NCBI GenBank assembly: GCA_902762495.1
Contig: CACWOL010000033.1
Span: forward strand, 1 to 64,000
Reading direction: 5' to 3'
Source: an uncultured bacterium
Lineage (GTDB): Bacteria; Verrucomicrobiota; Lentisphaeria; Victivallales; UBA1829
Length of the DNA stretch: 64,000 nt
In this document: in pieces, positions 21,301 through 29,338 of the stretch
Position numbering within the stretch: position 1 is the stretch's first letter
Layout: every line of letters starts with the position of its first letter
Notes under the pieces: generated by a model
Told to the model about the DNA's origin: nothing
The model's database searches: none
What the model saw: the letters and a program-made list of their open reading frames with translations, nothing else
Translations under genes and position numbers: made by a program

Positions 21301-21328
21301 TTGAAAAATCGGGAAAAAGATGTAAATT
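21301..21328 (+). promoter_or_regulatory. promoter of the hydrogenase operon
   Basis: TTGAAA (21301-21306), a 16-bp spacer and TAAATT (21323-21328). The predicted start point falls inside the palindrome at 21332-21355. A second TATATT (21330-21335) has no matching -35. Confidence 0.55.
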
Positions 21329-21331
21329 ATA

Positions 21332-21355
21332 TATTCGATAAAAAAATATCGAATA
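21332..21355. promoter_or_regulatory. putative operator of the hydrogenase operon
   Basis: TATTCGATA (21332-21340), six A, then TATCGAATA (21347-21355): a perfect inverted repeat directly after the -10 box. Its place and symmetry suit a dimeric repressor. The cognate regulator is not in the window. Confidence 0.5.
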
Positions 21356-21440: not shown

Positions 21441-21689
21441 ATGAAACGCAAAATCGTCATTTGTATGGGAAGCAGCTGCTTTGCCCGCGGCAACGAGGAG
21501 AATCTCCGCGTGATCGAGGATTTTCTGAAGTCGAACAACCTGCAGGCGGACGTGCTGCTTTCCGGCCGCTGCTGCGCGGGTCTCTGCGCGGAAGGGCCGA
21601 ACCTCATCATCGACGAAACGACTTACAGCCATGTGAGCAAAGAAGCCCTGATCGACATTCTGAACCGCGAGTTTCTTGCGAATAAATAA
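21441..21689 (+). CDS. thioredoxin-like [2Fe-2S] ferredoxin of the hydrogenase operon
   Basis: An 82-residue protein with the NuoE/HydC C-terminal fold. Ligand cysteines are in CMGSSC (8 and 13) and GRCCAGLC (44/45 and 49), giving a C-x4-C plus C-x3-C pattern for one [2Fe-2S] cluster. The start at 21441 is chosen because the protein signature begins at once; the ORF is open further upstream. It is the first gene of the operon and is followed after 15 nt by the sensory hydrogenase. A small 2Fe-2S protein in the same place is known in the Thermotoga maritima hydrogenase locus, as I recall. It probably relays electrons to or from the sensor; this is inference. Confidence 0.82.
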   Translation: MKRKIVICMGSSCFARGNEENLRVIEDFLKSNNLQADVLLSGRCCAGLCAEGPNLIIDETTYSHVSKEALIDILNREFLANK

Positions 21690-21704: not shown

Positions 21705-23444
21705 ATGAACCAGGGATATCCGGTTTTTACCGCCGACGCCGAGTGCCAGGACTGCTTCAAATGCGTCCGGCGCTGCCCCGTGAAAGCGATCAAGGTCGAA
21801 GACGGCCACGCGTCCGTCATGCCGGAACTCTGCATCGCATGCGGCGGCTGCGTGGAAGTCTGCCCCGTTCACGCGAAGAAGATCCGCGACGACATGACGC
21901 GCGCCCGTCAGCTCATCCTCGGCCCCGATCCCGTCTACGTTTCGCTGGCTCCGTCCTGGGTGAGCGAGTTCAAGGGGCTCCCCGCGAAGAACATGATTGC
22001 CTCGCTGAAGAAGCTCGGATTCGCCGGAGTCGGCGAGACCGCGATCGGCGCGCAGGCGGTTTCCGACGCGCTTGCGCTGGAACTGAAGGATTTCAAGAGC
22101 GGGCTGAAGATTTCGTCCGCATGCCCCGTGGTCGACGATTTCATCTGCAAATATATGCCCGAGTTCGCGCCGTGCATCACGAAGGTGCTGTCGCCCGCGC
22201 TGACGCACGCCAAGCTCCTGAAGAAGGAATTCGGGGAGAACGCGAAGGTGGTGTTCATCGGCCCGTGCATAGCGAAGAAGAACGAATCCGACCGCCACGG
22301 CGACCTGATCTCGCTCGCGATGCTGTTCTCGCGCCTGCGCCAATGGTTCCGCAGCATGCAGATCGACCCGTGGCGCGTGGAAACGACCGACGCGGACGTC
22401 TTCGTGCCGCAGGTCGCACGCGAGGGCACGCTGTACCCGATCGAGGGCGGCATGAACGACACGATCAAACTGCATCCGGGCTGCGGCCATGTGAAATACG
22501 TCGCGGTGACCGGGCTTGACAGCCTCCGCCTCACGCTCGAGGGGCTTCATCCGCGCGACATCCGCGAACCGGTTTTCCTGGAAACGCTCGCCTGCCAGGG
22601 CGGCTGCGTCCACGGACCGGGCACGGAACACGGCGCGCCGGGCCTCATGGAACGCCTCCGCATCCTCCGCATGGCGGACGTGCCGGAGACGGTCGCCGAC
22701 CGCGAACCGGACGTGGCGCTGGACCTGGACTACAAGGAAGCGCCTGCGGCGGGGAAGGACGTCTCTCTGCATGAGATCCGTCAGGCGCTGCTCCGCGTGG
22801 GCAAGAAGAACAAGGAAGACGAACTGAACTGCGGCGGCTGCGGATACAACACCTGCCTCAATTTCGCCAAGGCGCTGATCGCGGGCAAGGCCGAGCCGAA
22901 CATGTGCGTCTCCTACATGCGCAAGCTCGCCCAGAAGAAATCCAACGCCATCCTGCGTTGCATCCCCGCGGCGGTCGTGATCGTGGATCAGAGCCTCACG
23001 CTCATCGAGTCCAACCACAGGTTCGCCGAACTCTGCGGCGAATCGGCGCTCGACGTTTGGAACGTGCTGCCCGGTATGGCCGGCGCCGCGCTCGACACCT
23101 TCATCAGCTTCTCCGACCTCTTCCGCGAGGTCCTGACCACGAAAAACGAGCTGTCGCGCGACACGATCCACGTGAACGGGCGGCTCATAAGCCTGTACAT
23201 CTTCAACATCGACCCCGGACAGGTCGTCGGCGCGATGATGTTCGACGTGACGCGCACGGAATTCCGCCGCGAGGAGATCGCCGCACAGGCGCGTGAAGTC
23301 ATCCGCAAGAATCTGGCGACGGTGCAGGATATCGCGTGCAAGCTCGGCGAACACATGGCCGACACGGAGATCCTGCTGCGGTCCATCGCGGAAAACTACG
23401 CGGATTCGCCGACCGACGACGAGTTCCAGAAGAAATACAAATGA
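21705..23444 (+). CDS. hydS: sensory-type [FeFe]-hydrogenase with 4Fe-4S and PAS-like domains
   Basis: A 579-residue soluble protein. Two 4Fe-4S motifs (Cys 14-24 and 43-53) lead to an H-cluster domain. L1 is SSACP (137-141), L2 GPCIAKK (Cys 188) and L3 ACQGGC (Cys 297 and 301). Catalytic enzymes have TSCCP in L1; here the proton-transfer Cys is Ala 139, the usual mark of group C sensory hydrogenases. A second cysteine cluster, CGGCGYNTC (376-384) plus Cys 401, is followed by a PAS-like domain (about 415-520) and a helical C-terminus. It overlaps or abuts the SpoIIE phosphatase gene. An H2- or redox-dependent signal passed to that phosphatase is the likely role. Confidence 0.88.
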   Translation: MNQGYPVFTADAECQDCFKCVRRCPVKAIKVEDGHASVMPELCIACGGCVEVCPVHAKKIRDDMTRARQLILGPDPVYVSLAPSWVSEFKGLPAKNMIASLKKLGFAGVGETAIGAQAVSDALALELKDFKSGLKISSACPVVDDFICKYMPEFAPCITKVLSPALTHAKLLKKEFGENAKVVFIGPCIAKKNESDRHGDLISLAMLFSRLRQWFRSMQIDPWRVETTDADVFVPQVAREGTLYPIEGGMNDTIKLHPGCGHVKYVAVTGLDSLRLTLEGLHPRDIREPVFLETLACQGGCVHGPGTEHGAPGLMERLRILRMADVPETVADREPDVALDLDYKEAPAAGKDVSLHEIRQALLRVGKKNKEDELNCGGCGYNTCLNFAKALIAGKAEPNMCVSYMRKLAQKKSNAILRCIPAAVVIVDQSLTLIESNHRFAELCGESALDVWNVLPGMAGAALDTFISFSDLFREVLTTKNELSRDTIHVNGRLISLYIFNIDPGQVVGAMMFDVTRTEFRREEIAAQAREVIRKNLATVQDIACKLGEHMADTEILLRSIAENYADSPTDDEFQKKYK

Positions 23445-23461
23445 CCCCAGGTGACTGGACG

Positions 23462-24646
23462 ATGAGCGAACCTTTCTTCATAGACCTCGGATTCAGCCAG
23501 TGCCGCAAGCACGGCGAGGACATCTGCGGCGACGCCTTCAAGTTCATCAAGAACATGGAGGATTCGCGCGTGGTGGCCGTGCTGTCGGACGGTCTGGGCA
23601 GCGGCGTGAAGGCGAACATCCTCGCCTCCATGACCGCGACGATGGCGCTGAAGTTCGCCAATGAGCTGACCGGCCCCCGCGGTATCCTGCACGCCGCCGA
23701 GATCATGATGGACGCCCTCCCGATCTGCCAGGTCCGAAAGATTAGCTACGCCACGTTCACGATCCTGAACGCCTGGCCGGACGGGAACGTCCGCATCATC
23801 GAGATGGGCAATCCGGCGTTCGTGCTGCTCCGGAACGACAAGGTTGTCGAAGTGCCGTACGAAGAGCTGAACCCGTCCAAGTACGACAACCGCAGCATGA
23901 AGGTGTACCACTTCAAGGTCGATATGTGGGACCGCATCGTCTTCTTCTCCGACGGCGTCACGCAGGCCGCGATCGGTTCGGACGAGCTTCCGCTCGGCTG
24001 GCGCGAAAGCGGCGTGTCCGAATATCTCGTGGACTATCTGAGCAACAGCCTGGACGTGTCCTCCTATGAAGTCGCGGAGCACGTGATCTCCGAGGCGATC
24101 AGCAAGGAGCCGCACAACATCAACAAAGACGACATGACCTGCGCCGCGCTGTATTTCCGGAATCCGCGCGAGATGCTGCTTTTCACCGGGCCTCCGTACG
24201 ATTCCGCCCGCGACGCCGAATGCGCGTCGTTCCTGAAGAATTTCGTCGGAGACAAGGCGATCTGCGGCGGAACCAGCGCGGAGATCGTGTCGCGCGAGCT
24301 CGGCCGCGAACTGAAGATGGACCTGACGAGCATTTCCCCGGACATGCCCCCGATGTCCACCATGGACGGCGTCAACCTCGTGACGGAGGGCATCTTCACG
24401 CTCTCGAAGGCCGCAAGCTACCTGGAGGAGGTCGACGGCGGACGCCACAACGATCCCGCCGGTCTCCTGACCCGCCTGATGCTCCGCAACGACGTGATCA
24501 CGTTCCTGGTCGGGACGCGCATCAACGAGGCGCATCAGGACCCGAATCTGCCGCACGACCTGGAGCTGCGCCGGAACATCGTGCAGCGGCTGGCCCACAC
24601 ACTCGAAAACCATTATTTGAAAAAAGTCGTCATCAAATACGTTTGA
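23462..24646 (+). CDS. SpoIIE/RsbU-type PP2C serine phosphatase
   Basis: A 394-residue PPM-family phosphatase expected to dephosphorylate a serine, classically on an anti-sigma-factor antagonist. Metal-binding motifs are visible: GDAF (about 22-25), LSDGLGSG (about 41-48), FFSDGVTQ (about 161-168) and NKDDMT (about 221-226). A roughly 160-residue C-terminal region lies beyond the phosphatase core. The start at 23462 is preferred because AGGTGA stands 7 nt upstream; ATG 23441 overlaps the hydS stop as ATGA and would add seven residues. No STAS or anti-sigma gene is in the window, so the target is unknown. Placement between hydS and hydC indicates control of the hydrogenase operon. Confidence 0.85.
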   Translation: MSEPFFIDLGFSQCRKHGEDICGDAFKFIKNMEDSRVVAVLSDGLGSGVKANILASMTATMALKFANELTGPRGILHAAEIMMDALPICQVRKISYATFTILNAWPDGNVRIIEMGNPAFVLLRNDKVVEVPYEELNPSKYDNRSMKVYHFKVDMWDRIVFFSDGVTQAAIGSDELPLGWRESGVSEYLVDYLSNSLDVSSYEVAEHVISEAISKEPHNINKDDMTCAALYFRNPREMLLFTGPPYDSARDAECASFLKNFVGDKAICGGTSAEIVSRELGRELKMDLTSISPDMPPMSTMDGVNLVTEGIFTLSKAASYLEEVDGGRHNDPAGLLTRLMLRNDVITFLVGTRINEAHQDPNLPHDLELRRNIVQRLAHTLENHYLKKVVIKYV

Positions 24647-24698
24647 ACGATCAACATAAATAAACCCCAATACCCACATCAACCCCATGGAGAAACCT

Positions 24699-25226
24699 AT
24701 GCAGGAAACCCTGGAAAAGACTCGTGCGATGGTGCACCACCTCGCGGCGGTCAACGAGATTCTCGAAAAGAACGGGAACGACCCCTCCCGGCTCATCCCG
24801 ATCCTTCAGGAGGTGCAGGAAGTCTACAAGTACCTTTCGAAGGACGTCATCAGCTATGTGGCCACGTCGCTTGACGTGCCCGTGGCGCATGTGTACGGCG
24901 TTGCCACGTTCTACGCCCACTTCTCCCTGAATCCCAAGGGAAAACACATCTTCCGCCTCTGCGACGGCACCGCCTGCCACGTGAAGAAGTCCATGGGACT
25001 GCTCGAGGCAATCTACAAGAAGCTCGGCCTCAGCGATGAGAAGCGCACCACCGATGACCTCCTCTTCACCGTCGAGATCGTGAACTGCCTCGGCGCCTGC
25101 GGCCTCGCCCCCGTGATCGTCATCGACGGCGAAGTCCACGGCCAGGCCACCCCGGAACAGGTCGAGAAGATCATCGACGAGATCACGGCCGCCGAAGCCG
25201 CCGCCGCGGAATCCGAAAACAAGTAA
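24699..25226 (+). CDS. hydC: NAD(P)-linked [FeFe]-hydrogenase subunit gamma (NuoE-like)
   Basis: A 175-residue thioredoxin-fold [2Fe-2S] subunit. Ligands are CDGTAC (88 and 93) and CLGAC (130 and 134), and the helical N-terminal bundle (1-75) matches NuoE. The ATG at 24699 is preferred to the one at 24687 because the GGAG inside the earlier ATGGAG is ideally spaced for it. It is followed by hydB after 18 nt. The subunit passes electrons between the FMN site of HydB and the 2Fe-2S sites in the trimeric, possibly electron-bifurcating, complex. Codons here and in hydB/hydA end overwhelmingly in C, more than in the upstream genes, suggesting high expression. Confidence 0.92.
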   Translation: MQETLEKTRAMVHHLAAVNEILEKNGNDPSRLIPILQEVQEVYKYLSKDVISYVATSLDVPVAHVYGVATFYAHFSLNPKGKHIFRLCDGTACHVKKSMGLLEAIYKKLGLSDEKRTTDDLLFTVEIVNCLGACGLAPVIVIDGEVHGQATPEQVEKIIDEITAAEAAAAESENK

Positions 25227-25244
25227 CGAAGGGAATCACATACG

Positions 25245-27155
25245 ATGAGCACCGAAATCAAAACGCCGAATCTGGAAGAGATCGCCGCGAACTACAAAAA
25301 AGTCGTCGCCAAGCTCAAACGCCGCATCATCATCTGCGGCGGTACCGGATGCATCGCCAACGGTTCCATGAAGGTCCGCGACGCCATCTGCGCCGAGCTC
25401 GAAAAAGCCGGCGAACACATCGAAGTCGTCCTCGACCGCCACGACTGCTCCAAGAACGAGGGCGTCACTTACTTCTCCAAGTCCGGCTGCCAGGGATTCT
25501 GCCAGATGGGCCCGATCCTCCGCATCGAACCCGAAGGGATCTTCTACTGCCACGTGAAGCCCGAAGACGCGGCCGAGATCGTCCATGTGACGCTGATCGG
25601 CGGCGAGATCATCGACCGCCTGGTCTACGTCGACCCCGTCAGCGGCAAAGCCTGCCGCCATGAGGACGAGATCGCGTTCTACGCCCGTCAGACCCGTGTC
25701 GTGCTGGCCAACTACATGATCGAGCCGGACGACGTCGAAGAATACATCGCCCGCGAAGGATACGTCGGCGCGCGCAAGGCCATCACCGAGATGACCCCGG
25801 AACAGGTCTGCCAGACCATGATCGACGCCGGTCTCCGCGGCCGCGGCGGCGGCGGTTTCCCCACCGGCCTCAAATGGAAATTCACGCTCGCTTCCCAGAA
25901 CGACAAGAAATACGTCATCTGCAACGGCGACGAAGGCGACCCCGGCGCGTTCATGGACCGCTCCGTCATGGAAGGCAATCCCCACGCCGTGCTGGAAGGC
26001 ATGATGATCGCGGGCCGCGCGATCGGAGCCGACGAAGGCGTCGTGTACGTCCGCGCCGAATATCCGCTGGCCGTCGAACGCATCCGCAAGGCCATCGCCG
26101 ACGCGGAAGCCTACGGCCTGCTCGGCAAGAACCTTTTCGGCACCAATTTCAGCTTCACGATCCGCGTGATGGAAGGCGCCGGCGCCTTCGTCTGCGGCGA
26201 AGAGACCGCCCTGATCGCCTCCGTGGAAGGCAAGCGCGGCATGCCGATGCCGAAGCCGCCGTTCCCGGCGCAGAAGGGCCTCTACGGCAAGCCGACCGTG
26301 ATCAACAACGTGGAAACGCTCGCCTCCGTGGCGTACATCATCCGCAACGGCGCGGAGAAGTACCGCGAAGTCGGCCCGCAGAACTCCCCCGGCACGAAGA
26401 CGTTCGCCCTCACCGGCCACGTCGCGAACACCGGCCTCATCGAAGTCCCGTTCGGCACCACGCTCCGCGAGATCGTGTACAACATCGGCGGCGGCGTGAC
26501 GGACAACACCGGCAAGGTGACCGGCGAAGACTTCAAGTCCGTGCAGATCGGCGGCCCCTCCGGCGGCTGCCTGGTCCCCGACCTCCTCGACCTTCCGCTT
26601 GATTTCGACTCCCTGAAGAGTGCGGGCGCGATGGTCGGCTCCGGCGGACTCGTGGTCATGAACAAGCAGACCTGCATGGTCCGCATCGCGCGGTTCTTCA
26701 TGCAGTTCACGCAGAACGAATCCTGCGGCAAGTGCGTGCCGTGCCGTGAAGGCACGAAGCAGATGCTCGCGCTGCTCGACGACATCATCGAAGGCCGCGC
26801 CACGGCTGAAACGCTCGACCTCCTCGAGAAGACCGCGAAAGCCGTCCAGCTCGGCTCCCTCTGCGGCCTCGGCAAGACCGCCCCGAACCCGGTCCTCTCC
26901 ACCCTGCGCTATTTCCGCAAGGAGTACGAAGACCACGTGTTCAAAAAGATCTGCCCGACCGGCGAATGCAAGGCGCTCGCCCGTCCCGAGATCGACCCCG
27001 CGTTGTGCAAAGGCTGCACGGCCTGTGCCCGCAAGTGTCCCGTCGGCGCGATCACCGGCAAGGTGAAGACCGCTCACAGCATCGACCCCGAAAAATGCAT
27101 CAAGTGCGGCGCGTGCAAGGCCGCGTGCAAGTTCGGCGCAGTCAAGGGAATCTGA
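25245..27155 (+). CDS. hydB: NAD(P)-linked [FeFe]-hydrogenase subunit beta (NuoF-like, FMN/NADH)
   Basis: A 636-residue flavoprotein. An N-terminal 2Fe-2S module has Cys 31, 36, 82 and 86. The NuoF core has GRGGGGFPTGLKW (NADH/FMN loop), GDEGDPGAFMDR and NNVETLAS. The cluster site is ESCGKCVPCREG. A C-terminal 2x[4Fe-4S] ferredoxin domain has CKGCTACARKCP and CIKCGACKAAC. This fusion of N-terminal 2Fe-2S, NuoF and bacterial ferredoxin is characteristic of HydB of Thermotoga-type and clostridial bifurcating hydrogenases. It would oxidise or reduce NAD(H) and exchange electrons with ferredoxin. GAAGGGA precedes the start. Confidence 0.94.
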   Translation: MSTEIKTPNLEEIAANYKKVVAKLKRRIIICGGTGCIANGSMKVRDAICAELEKAGEHIEVVLDRHDCSKNEGVTYFSKSGCQGFCQMGPILRIEPEGIFYCHVKPEDAAEIVHVTLIGGEIIDRLVYVDPVSGKACRHEDEIAFYARQTRVVLANYMIEPDDVEEYIAREGYVGARKAITEMTPEQVCQTMIDAGLRGRGGGGFPTGLKWKFTLASQNDKKYVICNGDEGDPGAFMDRSVMEGNPHAVLEGMMIAGRAIGADEGVVYVRAEYPLAVERIRKAIADAEAYGLLGKNLFGTNFSFTIRVMEGAGAFVCGEETALIASVEGKRGMPMPKPPFPAQKGLYGKPTVINNVETLASVAYIIRNGAEKYREVGPQNSPGTKTFALTGHVANTGLIEVPFGTTLREIVYNIGGGVTDNTGKVTGEDFKSVQIGGPSGGCLVPDLLDLPLDFDSLKSAGAMVGSGGLVVMNKQTCMVRIARFFMQFTQNESCGKCVPCREGTKQMLALLDDIIEGRATAETLDLLEKTAKAVQLGSLCGLGKTAPNPVLSTLRYFRKEYEDHVFKKICPTGECKALARPEIDPALCKGCTACARKCPVGAITGKVKTAHSIDPEKCIKCGACKAACKFGAVKGI

Positions 27156-27176: not shown

Positions 27177-29243
27177 ATGGCCGACAACGTCAAAACGCTT
27201 ACCGTGAACGGACGCGAAGTCACGTTCACGAACGAACGCAACCTCCTCGAAGTCATCCGCAAAGCCGGGATCGAGATCCCGACCTTCTGCTACCACTCTG
27301 AACTGAGCATCTACGGCGCATGCCGCCTCTGCCTCGTCCTCGTCGAAGGCAAGGGCATCATGGCGTCCTGCTCCACCGCCCCCGCGCCCGGCATGGTCGT
27401 CCACACGGACACCAAGGAAATCCGCGACATGCGCAAAATCAGCGTGGAGCTTCTGCTCGCCAACCACAACCGCGAATGCCCGACCTGCGCCCGCAACGAG
27501 AACTGCACCCTGCAGCGCATCGCCTACCAGCTCGGCGTCCAGGACATCCGCTTCAAATCCGTGAAGAAGGACGATCCGATCGACTTCTCCTCCCCGTCAC
27601 TCGTCCGCGACCCGAACAAGTGCGTGCTCTGCGGCGACTGCGTACGCGTCTGCTCCGAAATCCAGGGCATCGGCGCGATCGACTTCTCGAACCGCGGTTC
27701 CAACGCCCGCGTGGCTCCGGCCTTCGGCGCTTCCCTCGGCACCGTCGAGTGCGTGAACTGCGGCCAGTGCGCCGCCGTCTGCCCCACCGGCGCGATCGTT
27801 CCGAAGCAGGACCGCAACCGCGTGTGGGACGCCCTGTACGATCCCACCAAGACCGTCGTGGTCCAGATCGCTCCGGCCGTCCGCGTGGCGCTGGGCGAAT
27901 ACTTCGGCGCGAAGCCGGGCGAGAACGTGGCCGGCAAGCTCGTCGCCGCCCTGAAGCTCATGGGCTTCAAGCACGTCTACGACACCAGCTTCTCCGCCGA
28001 CATGACCATCTTCGAGGAAGCGACCGAGCTCATCGACCGCATCGCCCACGGCGGCACGCTCCCGATGTTCACCAGCTGCTGCCCCGCCTGGGTCAAGTTC
28101 GCAGAGATCTACTTCCCTGAAATGATTCCGCACATCTCCAGCTGCCGTTCCCCGCAGGCCATGTTCGGCTCCATCGCCAAGAAGGTCCTGCCCGAACAGC
28201 TCGGCTGCAAGCGCGAAGACCTCGTGGTCGTTTCCATCATGCCCTGCACAGCGAAGAAGTTCGAAGCCCAGCTGCCGAAGTTCAACGTCGACGGCAAGCA
28301 GGAAGTCGATATCGTCGTGACCACCAGCGAAGTCCAGCGCATGATCAACTCCATGGGCATCAAGCTCAACGAGCTCCAGCCCGAAGCATTCGACATGCCC
28401 ATGGGATTCGCGACCGGCGGCGGCGTCATCTTCGGCGCGTCCGGCGGCGTCATGGAAGCCGCGCTCCGCTATGCGGTCGAAAAGCTCGACGGCAAGCCGC
28501 TCGCCAGCGTCGACTTCAAGGCCGTCCGCGGCATGAACACCCTCAAGGAAGCCACCGTGACCGCGGCAGGCAAGGAAATCCACGTGGCGGTCGTCCACGG
28601 CCTCGCCAACGCCAAGCGCCTCATCAATGACGTCCGTTCCGGCAAGGCCCACTACGACTTCGTCGAAGTCATGGCGTGCCCCGGCGGCTGCATCTCCGGC
28701 GGCGGCCAGCCCGTCGGCGTCACCGACGCGATCCGCGTCCAGCGCCAGCAGGGCCTCTACGCGGCCGACAAGTCCCAGCAGGTCCAGAAGTGCCAGGACA
28801 ACTTCCTGGTCGACCAGTGCTACAAGGACCACATCGGCGGCAAGCCCGGCTCCCCCGAAGCGCACCACCTGCTGCACACGGTCTACCAGAACCGCAGCCA
28901 AATCTTCGACGCGAAGATTCCGATCATGCGCGGCACCGCTCAGAACCGCTTCATGATCACCGTCACGATCTGCGCCAAGCAGGACAACTGCCCCGGCCAG
29001 CTCCTGATCGGCATGATCTCTGAATACGTCCGAAACAAGAACTACACGGACAAGGTCGACATGGACGCCGCGTTCTCGTCCCGTCCCGAACAGGACGGCA
29101 CGATCTGCGTGACCATCGGCGACGAAGTCGTCGAGCGCACCAAGTTCAGAAACGCCCTGAACACGCTGGAACAGCTCCAGAACCAGGCCGCGTTCGAGAC
29201 GATCAAGAAGAAGATCGACGAGAGCGTCGCCAAGCTCGGCTGA
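27177..29243 (+). CDS. hydA: [FeFe]-hydrogenase catalytic subunit alpha
   Basis: A 688-residue H2-activating subunit. N-terminal 2Fe-2S (Cys 38, 49, 52, 65) is followed by a His-Cys3 4Fe-4S site (His 97, Cys 101, 104, 110) and two 4Fe-4S motifs (about 149-159 and 192-202). The H-cluster is TSCCPAW (299-305, with the proton-transfer Cys 301), MPCTAKK (Cys 357) and MACPGGC (Cys 501 and 505). All catalytic cysteines are present. The usual end is near residue 570 (HHLLHT); about 115 extra residues follow with Cys 599, 605 and 644 and a helical tail. It is the last gene of the operon. A triple-palindrome repeat abuts the stop and a terminator follows. Confidence 0.95.
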   Translation: MADNVKTLTVNGREVTFTNERNLLEVIRKAGIEIPTFCYHSELSIYGACRLCLVLVEGKGIMASCSTAPAPGMVVHTDTKEIRDMRKISVELLLANHNRECPTCARNENCTLQRIAYQLGVQDIRFKSVKKDDPIDFSSPSLVRDPNKCVLCGDCVRVCSEIQGIGAIDFSNRGSNARVAPAFGASLGTVECVNCGQCAAVCPTGAIVPKQDRNRVWDALYDPTKTVVVQIAPAVRVALGEYFGAKPGENVAGKLVAALKLMGFKHVYDTSFSADMTIFEEATELIDRIAHGGTLPMFTSCCPAWVKFAEIYFPEMIPHISSCRSPQAMFGSIAKKVLPEQLGCKREDLVVVSIMPCTAKKFEAQLPKFNVDGKQEVDIVVTTSEVQRMINSMGIKLNELQPEAFDMPMGFATGGGVIFGASGGVMEAALRYAVEKLDGKPLASVDFKAVRGMNTLKEATVTAAGKEIHVAVVHGLANAKRLINDVRSGKAHYDFVEVMACPGGCISGGGQPVGVTDAIRVQRQQGLYAADKSQQVQKCQDNFLVDQCYKDHIGGKPGSPEAHHLLHTVYQNRSQIFDAKIPIMRGTAQNRFMITVTICAKQDNCPGQLLIGMISEYVRNKNYTDKVDMDAAFSSRPEQDGTICVTIGDEVVERTKFRNALNTLEQLQNQAAFETIKKKIDESVAKLG

Positions 29244-29290: not shown

Positions 29291-29304
29291 AAGTGAAATC
29301 CTTT

Positions 29305-29338
29305 TCCTCCGCTCTTTTACAGGGGCGGAGGAATTTTT
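29305..29338 (+). terminator. terminator of the hydrogenase operon
   Basis: TCCTCCGC (29305-29312) pairs with GCGGAGGA (29325-29332), followed by ATTTTT. It lies 62 nt beyond the hydA stop, after repeat copy B. Confidence 0.88.

Follow-up and report, generated by a model that had tools for sequence, protein, structure and literature searches.

A palindromic operator at a hydrogenase promoter of a Victivallales-type bacterium, probably read by a variant Rex with shifted specificity

Rex is an NADH-sensing repressor, and a target set of hydrogenase, gapA and adhE is typical of it. In the accounts drawn on here, Rex operators are said to differ little from one bacterial group to another, apart from an altered consensus in Clostridia. 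The consensus of the Rex operator (ROP) is given as TTGTGAAN4TTCACAA (PMC3441419, PMC8376106), and the clostridial Rex operator, TTGTTAANNNNTTAACAA, as a lineage-specific departure from it (PMC8457756, citing Ravcheev 2012). The helix arginine of T. maritima Rex contacts G5 and the lysine contacts G7 and A8 (PMC8836258). S. agalactiae Rex touches G5 and G7 with its two helix arginines, and its Ala47, which lies three residues before the first of these, makes a water-mediated contact with T6 and C16 (PMC8376106). No Rex site of the TnGATA type in the Victivallales-type group was found in the open-licence literature.

The site considered here lies in a 64-kb window (the whole stretch of DNA that was analysed), and the genome searched along with it amounts to 2.75 Mb in 96 contigs. 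The promoter elements and genes of the hydrogenase operon at this site are the following.

21301..21306, plus strand: -35-like hexamer TTGAAA, kept in 12 same-genus promoters
21323..21328, plus strand: -10-like hexamer TAAATT, with a 16-bp spacer to the -35; TAAATT in 11 of the 12 promoters, TACATT in one
21332..21355, no strand: 9-N6-9 palindromic operator TATTCGATA-AAAAAA-TATCGAATA, from its sequence and its recurrence in the same genome
21335..21353, no strand: invariant core TCGATAAAAAAATATCGAA, shared without change by all 12 same-genus hydrogenase promoters
21441..21689, plus strand: first gene of the operon, small thioredoxin-like 2Fe-2S protein (PF01257; ATG at 21441)
21705..23444, plus strand: hydrogenase-like putative H2/redox sensor (Fe_hyd_lg_C, FeS; PAS below cut-off only)
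23447..24646, plus strand: SpoIIE/PP2C-type phosphatase (PF07228; start position provisional)
24687..25226, plus strand: HydC/NuoE-like subunit (PF01257)
25245..27155, plus strand: HydB/NuoF-like subunit (PF01512, PF10589)
27177..29243, plus strand: HydA, [FeFe] hydrogenase catalytic subunit (PF02906)

The perfect palindrome at 21332-21355 was proposed in a first-pass annotation, and its letters and coordinates are exactly those claimed. Its arms are 9 bp long, with no outer pair beyond them, and 85 bases separate it from the ATG that opens the first gene. A transcription start about 7 bp past the -10 would fall within the left arm, and the promoter elements and the position of the dyad just after the -10 agree with the further claim that a bound dimer would be placed to block transcription. 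HydC, HydB and HydA of the operon make up a three-subunit [FeFe] hydrogenase of the HydABC type; HydA exceeds the TIGR02512 cut-off and narrowly misses that of NF040763, group A6 (762.3 vs 765 bits). The proposal that the operon encodes its own H2/redox sensor stands in part: it agrees with the hydrogenase-like and FeS domains at 21705-23444 and with the SpoIIE-type phosphatase next to them, and it is weakened by the PAS matches in the C-terminal part of the sensor gene (22920-23441), all of which lie below the Pfam cut-off (best E 0.0019). Two further inverted repeats may be mentioned, one of 9 bp with a 12-bp loop soon after the end of hydA (29304-29333), which is possibly the operon terminator, and a long perfect one at 100-128 of the window, GCGCCGGATGAA...TTCATCCGGCGC, which resembles a terminator stem.

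Perfect 9-bp inverted repeats with spacers of 0 to 12 bp occur eight times in the window, at five separate places. The palindrome is therefore not unique as such, and the case for an operator rests on recurrence and conservation. When up to three mismatches are allowed, the 24-mer pattern has a single match in the window and three in the genome, the window site included; 0 of 100 shuffles contained any match, and the reversed pattern gave none in the genome. A chance origin of the palindrome was rejected on these two controls. The G+C content is 60.5% in the window vs 39.5% in the intergenic region.

Of the other two genomic copies, one precedes a second HydC-HydB-HydA operon and one precedes gapA (GAPDH). 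The A-tract spacer is common to all three copies. The gapA site (L097, G000:C22) is found 131-108 bp before the gapA ATG and, unlike the hydrogenase site, upstream of the -35; in the genus its centre stands some 60 bp ahead of the expected start (counted by eye). Related sites bracket the promoter of a full-length adhE, which directly follows rexA (neighbour pair at L306 1686-5165, G000:C2). Each of these two sites has two mismatches to TnGATA-A6-TATCnA, with ATGATA or AAGATA and not TCGATA in the outer half, and one of them is upstream of the -35. The targets are thus of the fermentative, NADH-linked kind seen in Rex regulons (hydrogenase, gap, adhE). With base 4 of the half-site freed in the pattern, the search also picks up sites in front of an ACT/DUF711 gene pair and an HGD-D/BcrAD gene; these TGGATA-type sites (L182 2004-2027 and L183 2000-2023, on G000:C5 and C9) are conserved in several same-genus genomes.

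Conservation in orthologous promoters, on which the first-pass annotation had staked its reading, is evident: TCGATA-A6-TATCGA precedes the operon in all 12 same-genus genomes that have a full-length orthologue of the sensor gene, the present one included. When aligned, these promoters share an invariant core and differ in the two outer left bases and the final one, and the conserved site is therefore TCGATA-A6-TATCGAA, not the whole 24-mer. Mean identity is 94% over the 24 site bases vs 65% over all windows of the alignment. Among the 313 intergenic windows, 13, the site itself counted, are conserved at least as well as the site, and the eight best-conserved ones start 1-8 bases upstream of it and overlap the -10. 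Because near-copies, spacer included, lie upstream of the second HydABC operon and gapA, related sites are present at adhE, and the core is kept in relatives, the palindrome is an operator.

The shorter pattern ATTCGATA-N6-TATCGAAT, with up to two mismatches, has two to four matches in 12 of the 13 same-genus genomes (the present one included), not all of them with the A-tract, and no control match. The remaining genome, G006, has no match to this pattern and lacks a close sensor-gene orthologue (best match 2.8e-21); TTCGATAAAAAAACATCCAA lies upstream of its own rexB. The gapA site is present in seven of the eight same-genus genomes with a full-length gapA, G006 being without it. Of the 30 gapA loci examined, eight score 9 or more, and in G020, which belongs to another genus, the gapA site is just after the -10. 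At 17 hydrogenase loci from outside the genus, the 700 bp next to the sensor gene never contained the site; in out-of-genus loci headed by rex, the operon promoter is further up from the sensor gene. The two-mismatch pattern search is near chance outside the genus, where the reversed control matches too. A TTTCGATATTCGGATTTCGAAT-like sequence, perhaps a dispersed repeat, recurs on several contigs of G051 and G059.

The genome encodes two Rex proteins, RexA and RexB. Both have the N-terminal winged-helix domain (PF06971) and the C-terminal domain (PF02629) above the Pfam cut-offs, and they score 213.4 and 215.3 bits with the NCBIfam Rex model NF003994 (cut-off 130). The best match of RexB to the solved Rex structures has an E of 2e-34.

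G000:C46, locus L005 1704-1006, minus strand: rexB, assigned from its Rex domains

Proteins close to RexB, with identities of up to 100%, are encoded in genomes whose titles read Victivallales, Lentisphaeria or uncultured bacterium, several of which are of rumen origin, and judged from the named relatives the genome appears to be that of a Victivallales-type member of the Lentisphaeria. In 12 of the 48 out-of-genus genomes (G013, G014, G022, G034, G036, G038, G041, G043, G045, G050, G052 and G057), a rex gene is the direct 5' neighbour of the sensor-gene orthologue (coordinates read by eye). Because of the target set (two hydrogenases, gap and adhE), this rex adjacency and the sites upstream of rex genes described below, the palindrome is very probably the operator of a variant Rex with shifted specificity, most likely RexB. 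The same three lines of evidence speak against the earlier hint that no standard regulator would fit the site.

It is unlikely that RexA, and not RexB, regulates the hydrogenase site. RexA belongs to the same Rex clade, and two related sites are found at the neighbouring adhE, but the outer halves of those sites differ from TCGATA as described above, and RexA was found in only four of the 13 same-genus genomes, vs 12 of 13 for the hydrogenase site. RexB is likewise present in 12 of the 13. In G005, G007 and G011, which are 92-93% complete, RexB alone was found. The four genomes with rexA (G000, G003, G004 and G009) are also those with a close AdhE, which in G009 is a fragment at a contig end. 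A division of labour with one flank read by RexA and the other by RexB was set aside as well, as TGGATA-type sites are also present in G005 and G007, two genomes that yielded no RexA.

Crp-type operators, too, conform to the geometry xGxxA-N6-TxxCx. A regulator of the Crp/FNR type or with another helix-turn-helix, whose sites can have the same 6-bp spacing, is nevertheless a very improbable reader of the site: the search, which covered HTH_Crp_2, gave two weak matches in the genome (23.8 and 20.9 bits, cut-off 27), and such a regulator would explain neither the rex adjacency nor the sites that precede rex genes. A Crp/FNR regulator was rejected on the ground that no HTH_Crp_2 match exceeds the cut-off. 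Least credible of all is a role as a DNA or RNA structure, such as a hairpin at the 5' end of the mRNA or a cruciform, which a perfect 9-bp inverted repeat close to the start point might suggest and which was rejected because the copy at gapA and one of the pair at adhE are upstream of -35 boxes, and thus outside those transcripts, and because the spacer, too, is kept as an A-tract in the 12 promoters.

With a variant Rex, most likely RexB, as the reader of the site, the following course of regulation is predicted from the sequences. A Rex dimer without NADH would occupy TCGATA-N6-TATCGA across the start and exclude RNA polymerase from the hydrogenase operon. A rise in NADH would release Rex, and the hydrogenase then made would reoxidise the surplus NADH, with release of H2. 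In the NAD domain, G88, G90, G93 and D114 are invariant in one Rex alignment, G90 only nearly so in the 17-row variant alignment; these residues agree with the predicted NADH-driven release of DNA by RexA and RexB, though this is only suggestive. The common site type would tie the operon to the second HydABC hydrogenase, to gapA and, through the paralogue RexA, to adhE, where the two sites bracketing the promoter would fit repression too. At gapA, activation by Rex is conceivable, because the site is upstream of the -35 and about 60 bp before the expected start. Activation by Rex is treated in the cited account as suggested, not demonstrated (PMC8457756).

Across the order, the type of site tends to follow the type of Rex. 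In a tree of 73 Rex rows, a clade of 52 that includes both RexA and RexB has a support of 99/97, and the residue three before the helix arginine gives the same split (read by eye). The rex start positions behind the site calls were set by regular expression. Upstream of the 52 rows of the clade there are nine with a variant site only, two with both types, none with a classical site only, and 41 with none. On the other side of the tree there are 14 classical, five none, one both and one variant, the last two sharing their intergenic region with a divergent variant rex.

For a count of genes, 149 rex rows were dereplicated at 80% identity to 67, comprising 55 variant and 12 other Rex, told apart by the amino acid at the position three before the arginine. 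At L063 and L146 the plus-strand and minus-strand rows bear the same name, and one row of each was merged away. TnGATA-N6-TATCnA sites, called at nine or more of ten positions, are found upstream of 18 of the 55 variant rex genes (0.83 expected from shuffles), and classical sites upstream of seven of the 12 other genes (0.35 expected) and three of the 55 variant ones (1.53 expected); two control half-sites gave no match. The contrast between other and variant Rex in classical sites is significant (p = 9e-5, Fisher test). That in TnGATA sites is 18/55 vs 0/10 (p = 0.05) when the two rows with divergent, shared intergenic regions are set aside, and with these kept (2/12 other Rex) p is 0.49; taken alone, this contrast is weak. 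Moreover, 37 of the 55 variant rex genes, the genome's own rexA and rexB among them, have no TnGATA site upstream. Therefore, the link between site and Rex is a tendency and not a rule.

Strict sites (10/10) at the loci of the named genomes occur in seven of 77 rex-upstream windows, vs seven in about 2313 other 300-bp windows (p = 8e-8). Three of the seven non-rex sites precede an adhE-like gene and one a serC-like gene (by eye). At L268 4460-4477, a perfect TCGATA-A6-TATCGA lies between a variant rex and a divergent serC-like gene (by eye). The notion that the site is an oddity of one genus was dropped, for the same type stands upstream of rex genes in other families.

Another genome of the same family, G030, encodes a variant Rex together with one of the classical type (L062), and a classical site is found at its hydrogenase promoter.

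G030:C46, locus L092 3531-3554: classical Rex site TTGTGAAAATAATCACAA at the hydrogenase promoter

This site lies 341 bp before the sensor gene of G030, and the window site lies 370 bp before its own. TATATTAA, taken as a -10 by eye, precedes the G030 operator, much as a -10-like sequence precedes the window site. A more far-reaching account, which we hold tentatively and judge slightly more doubtful than probable as a whole, is that the Rex subfamily of Victivallales and relatives exchanged TTGTGA for TnGATA by way of the position three residues ahead of the recognition arginine, that sister genomes retain classical Rex, at times in one cell with the variant, that orthologous hydrogenase promoters swapped operators, and that gapA is perhaps activated by the same Rex. 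A Rex subfamily with the middle of the half-site exchanged would be a natural and testable specificity switch in a master NADH sensor. The variant site would also allow Rex regulons to be predicted in H2 producers of the gut and rumen, where a search for TTGTGA would miss them.

The Rex proteins of this genome may be compared with the members of the family of solved structure (T. ethanolicus, Thermus, B. subtilis, S. agalactiae and T. maritima), all of which share both Rex domains with RexA and RexB. The helix arginine and lysine of the family, together with an aspartate, are likewise invariant in the 17-row variant alignment. RexA and RexB differ from the other Rex of the order three residues before the helix arginine, where the variant rows have I, V or M, and not A, S or T (by eye). 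This residue is a candidate for the specificity switch; it is a candidate and not proof, because Thermus Rex has F there, and shared ancestry could be the source of the pattern. In the numbering of S. agalactiae, the change from TTGTGA to TnGATA keeps G5 and A8, which the helix arginine and lysine read, and alters bases 6 and 7.

The window site has the 6-bp spacing and the two-fold symmetry of the Rex operator without the classical sequence TTGTGA-N6-TCACAA. It scores 8/10 on the classical half-site and 10/10 on the variant one, and the departure from the textbook Rex pattern noted at first sight is thus confirmed. It resembles the ROP in the spacing of the dimer, in T, G and A at bases 3, 5 and 8 of the half-site, in its AT-rich centre, in targets of the hydrogenase, gapA and adhE type, and in its position over the start; it differs at bases 6 and 7, which read AT where the ROP has TG, and at base 4, which is either free or C. 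With the clostridial Rex operator it has T at base 7 in common, whereas base 6 is T there and A here.
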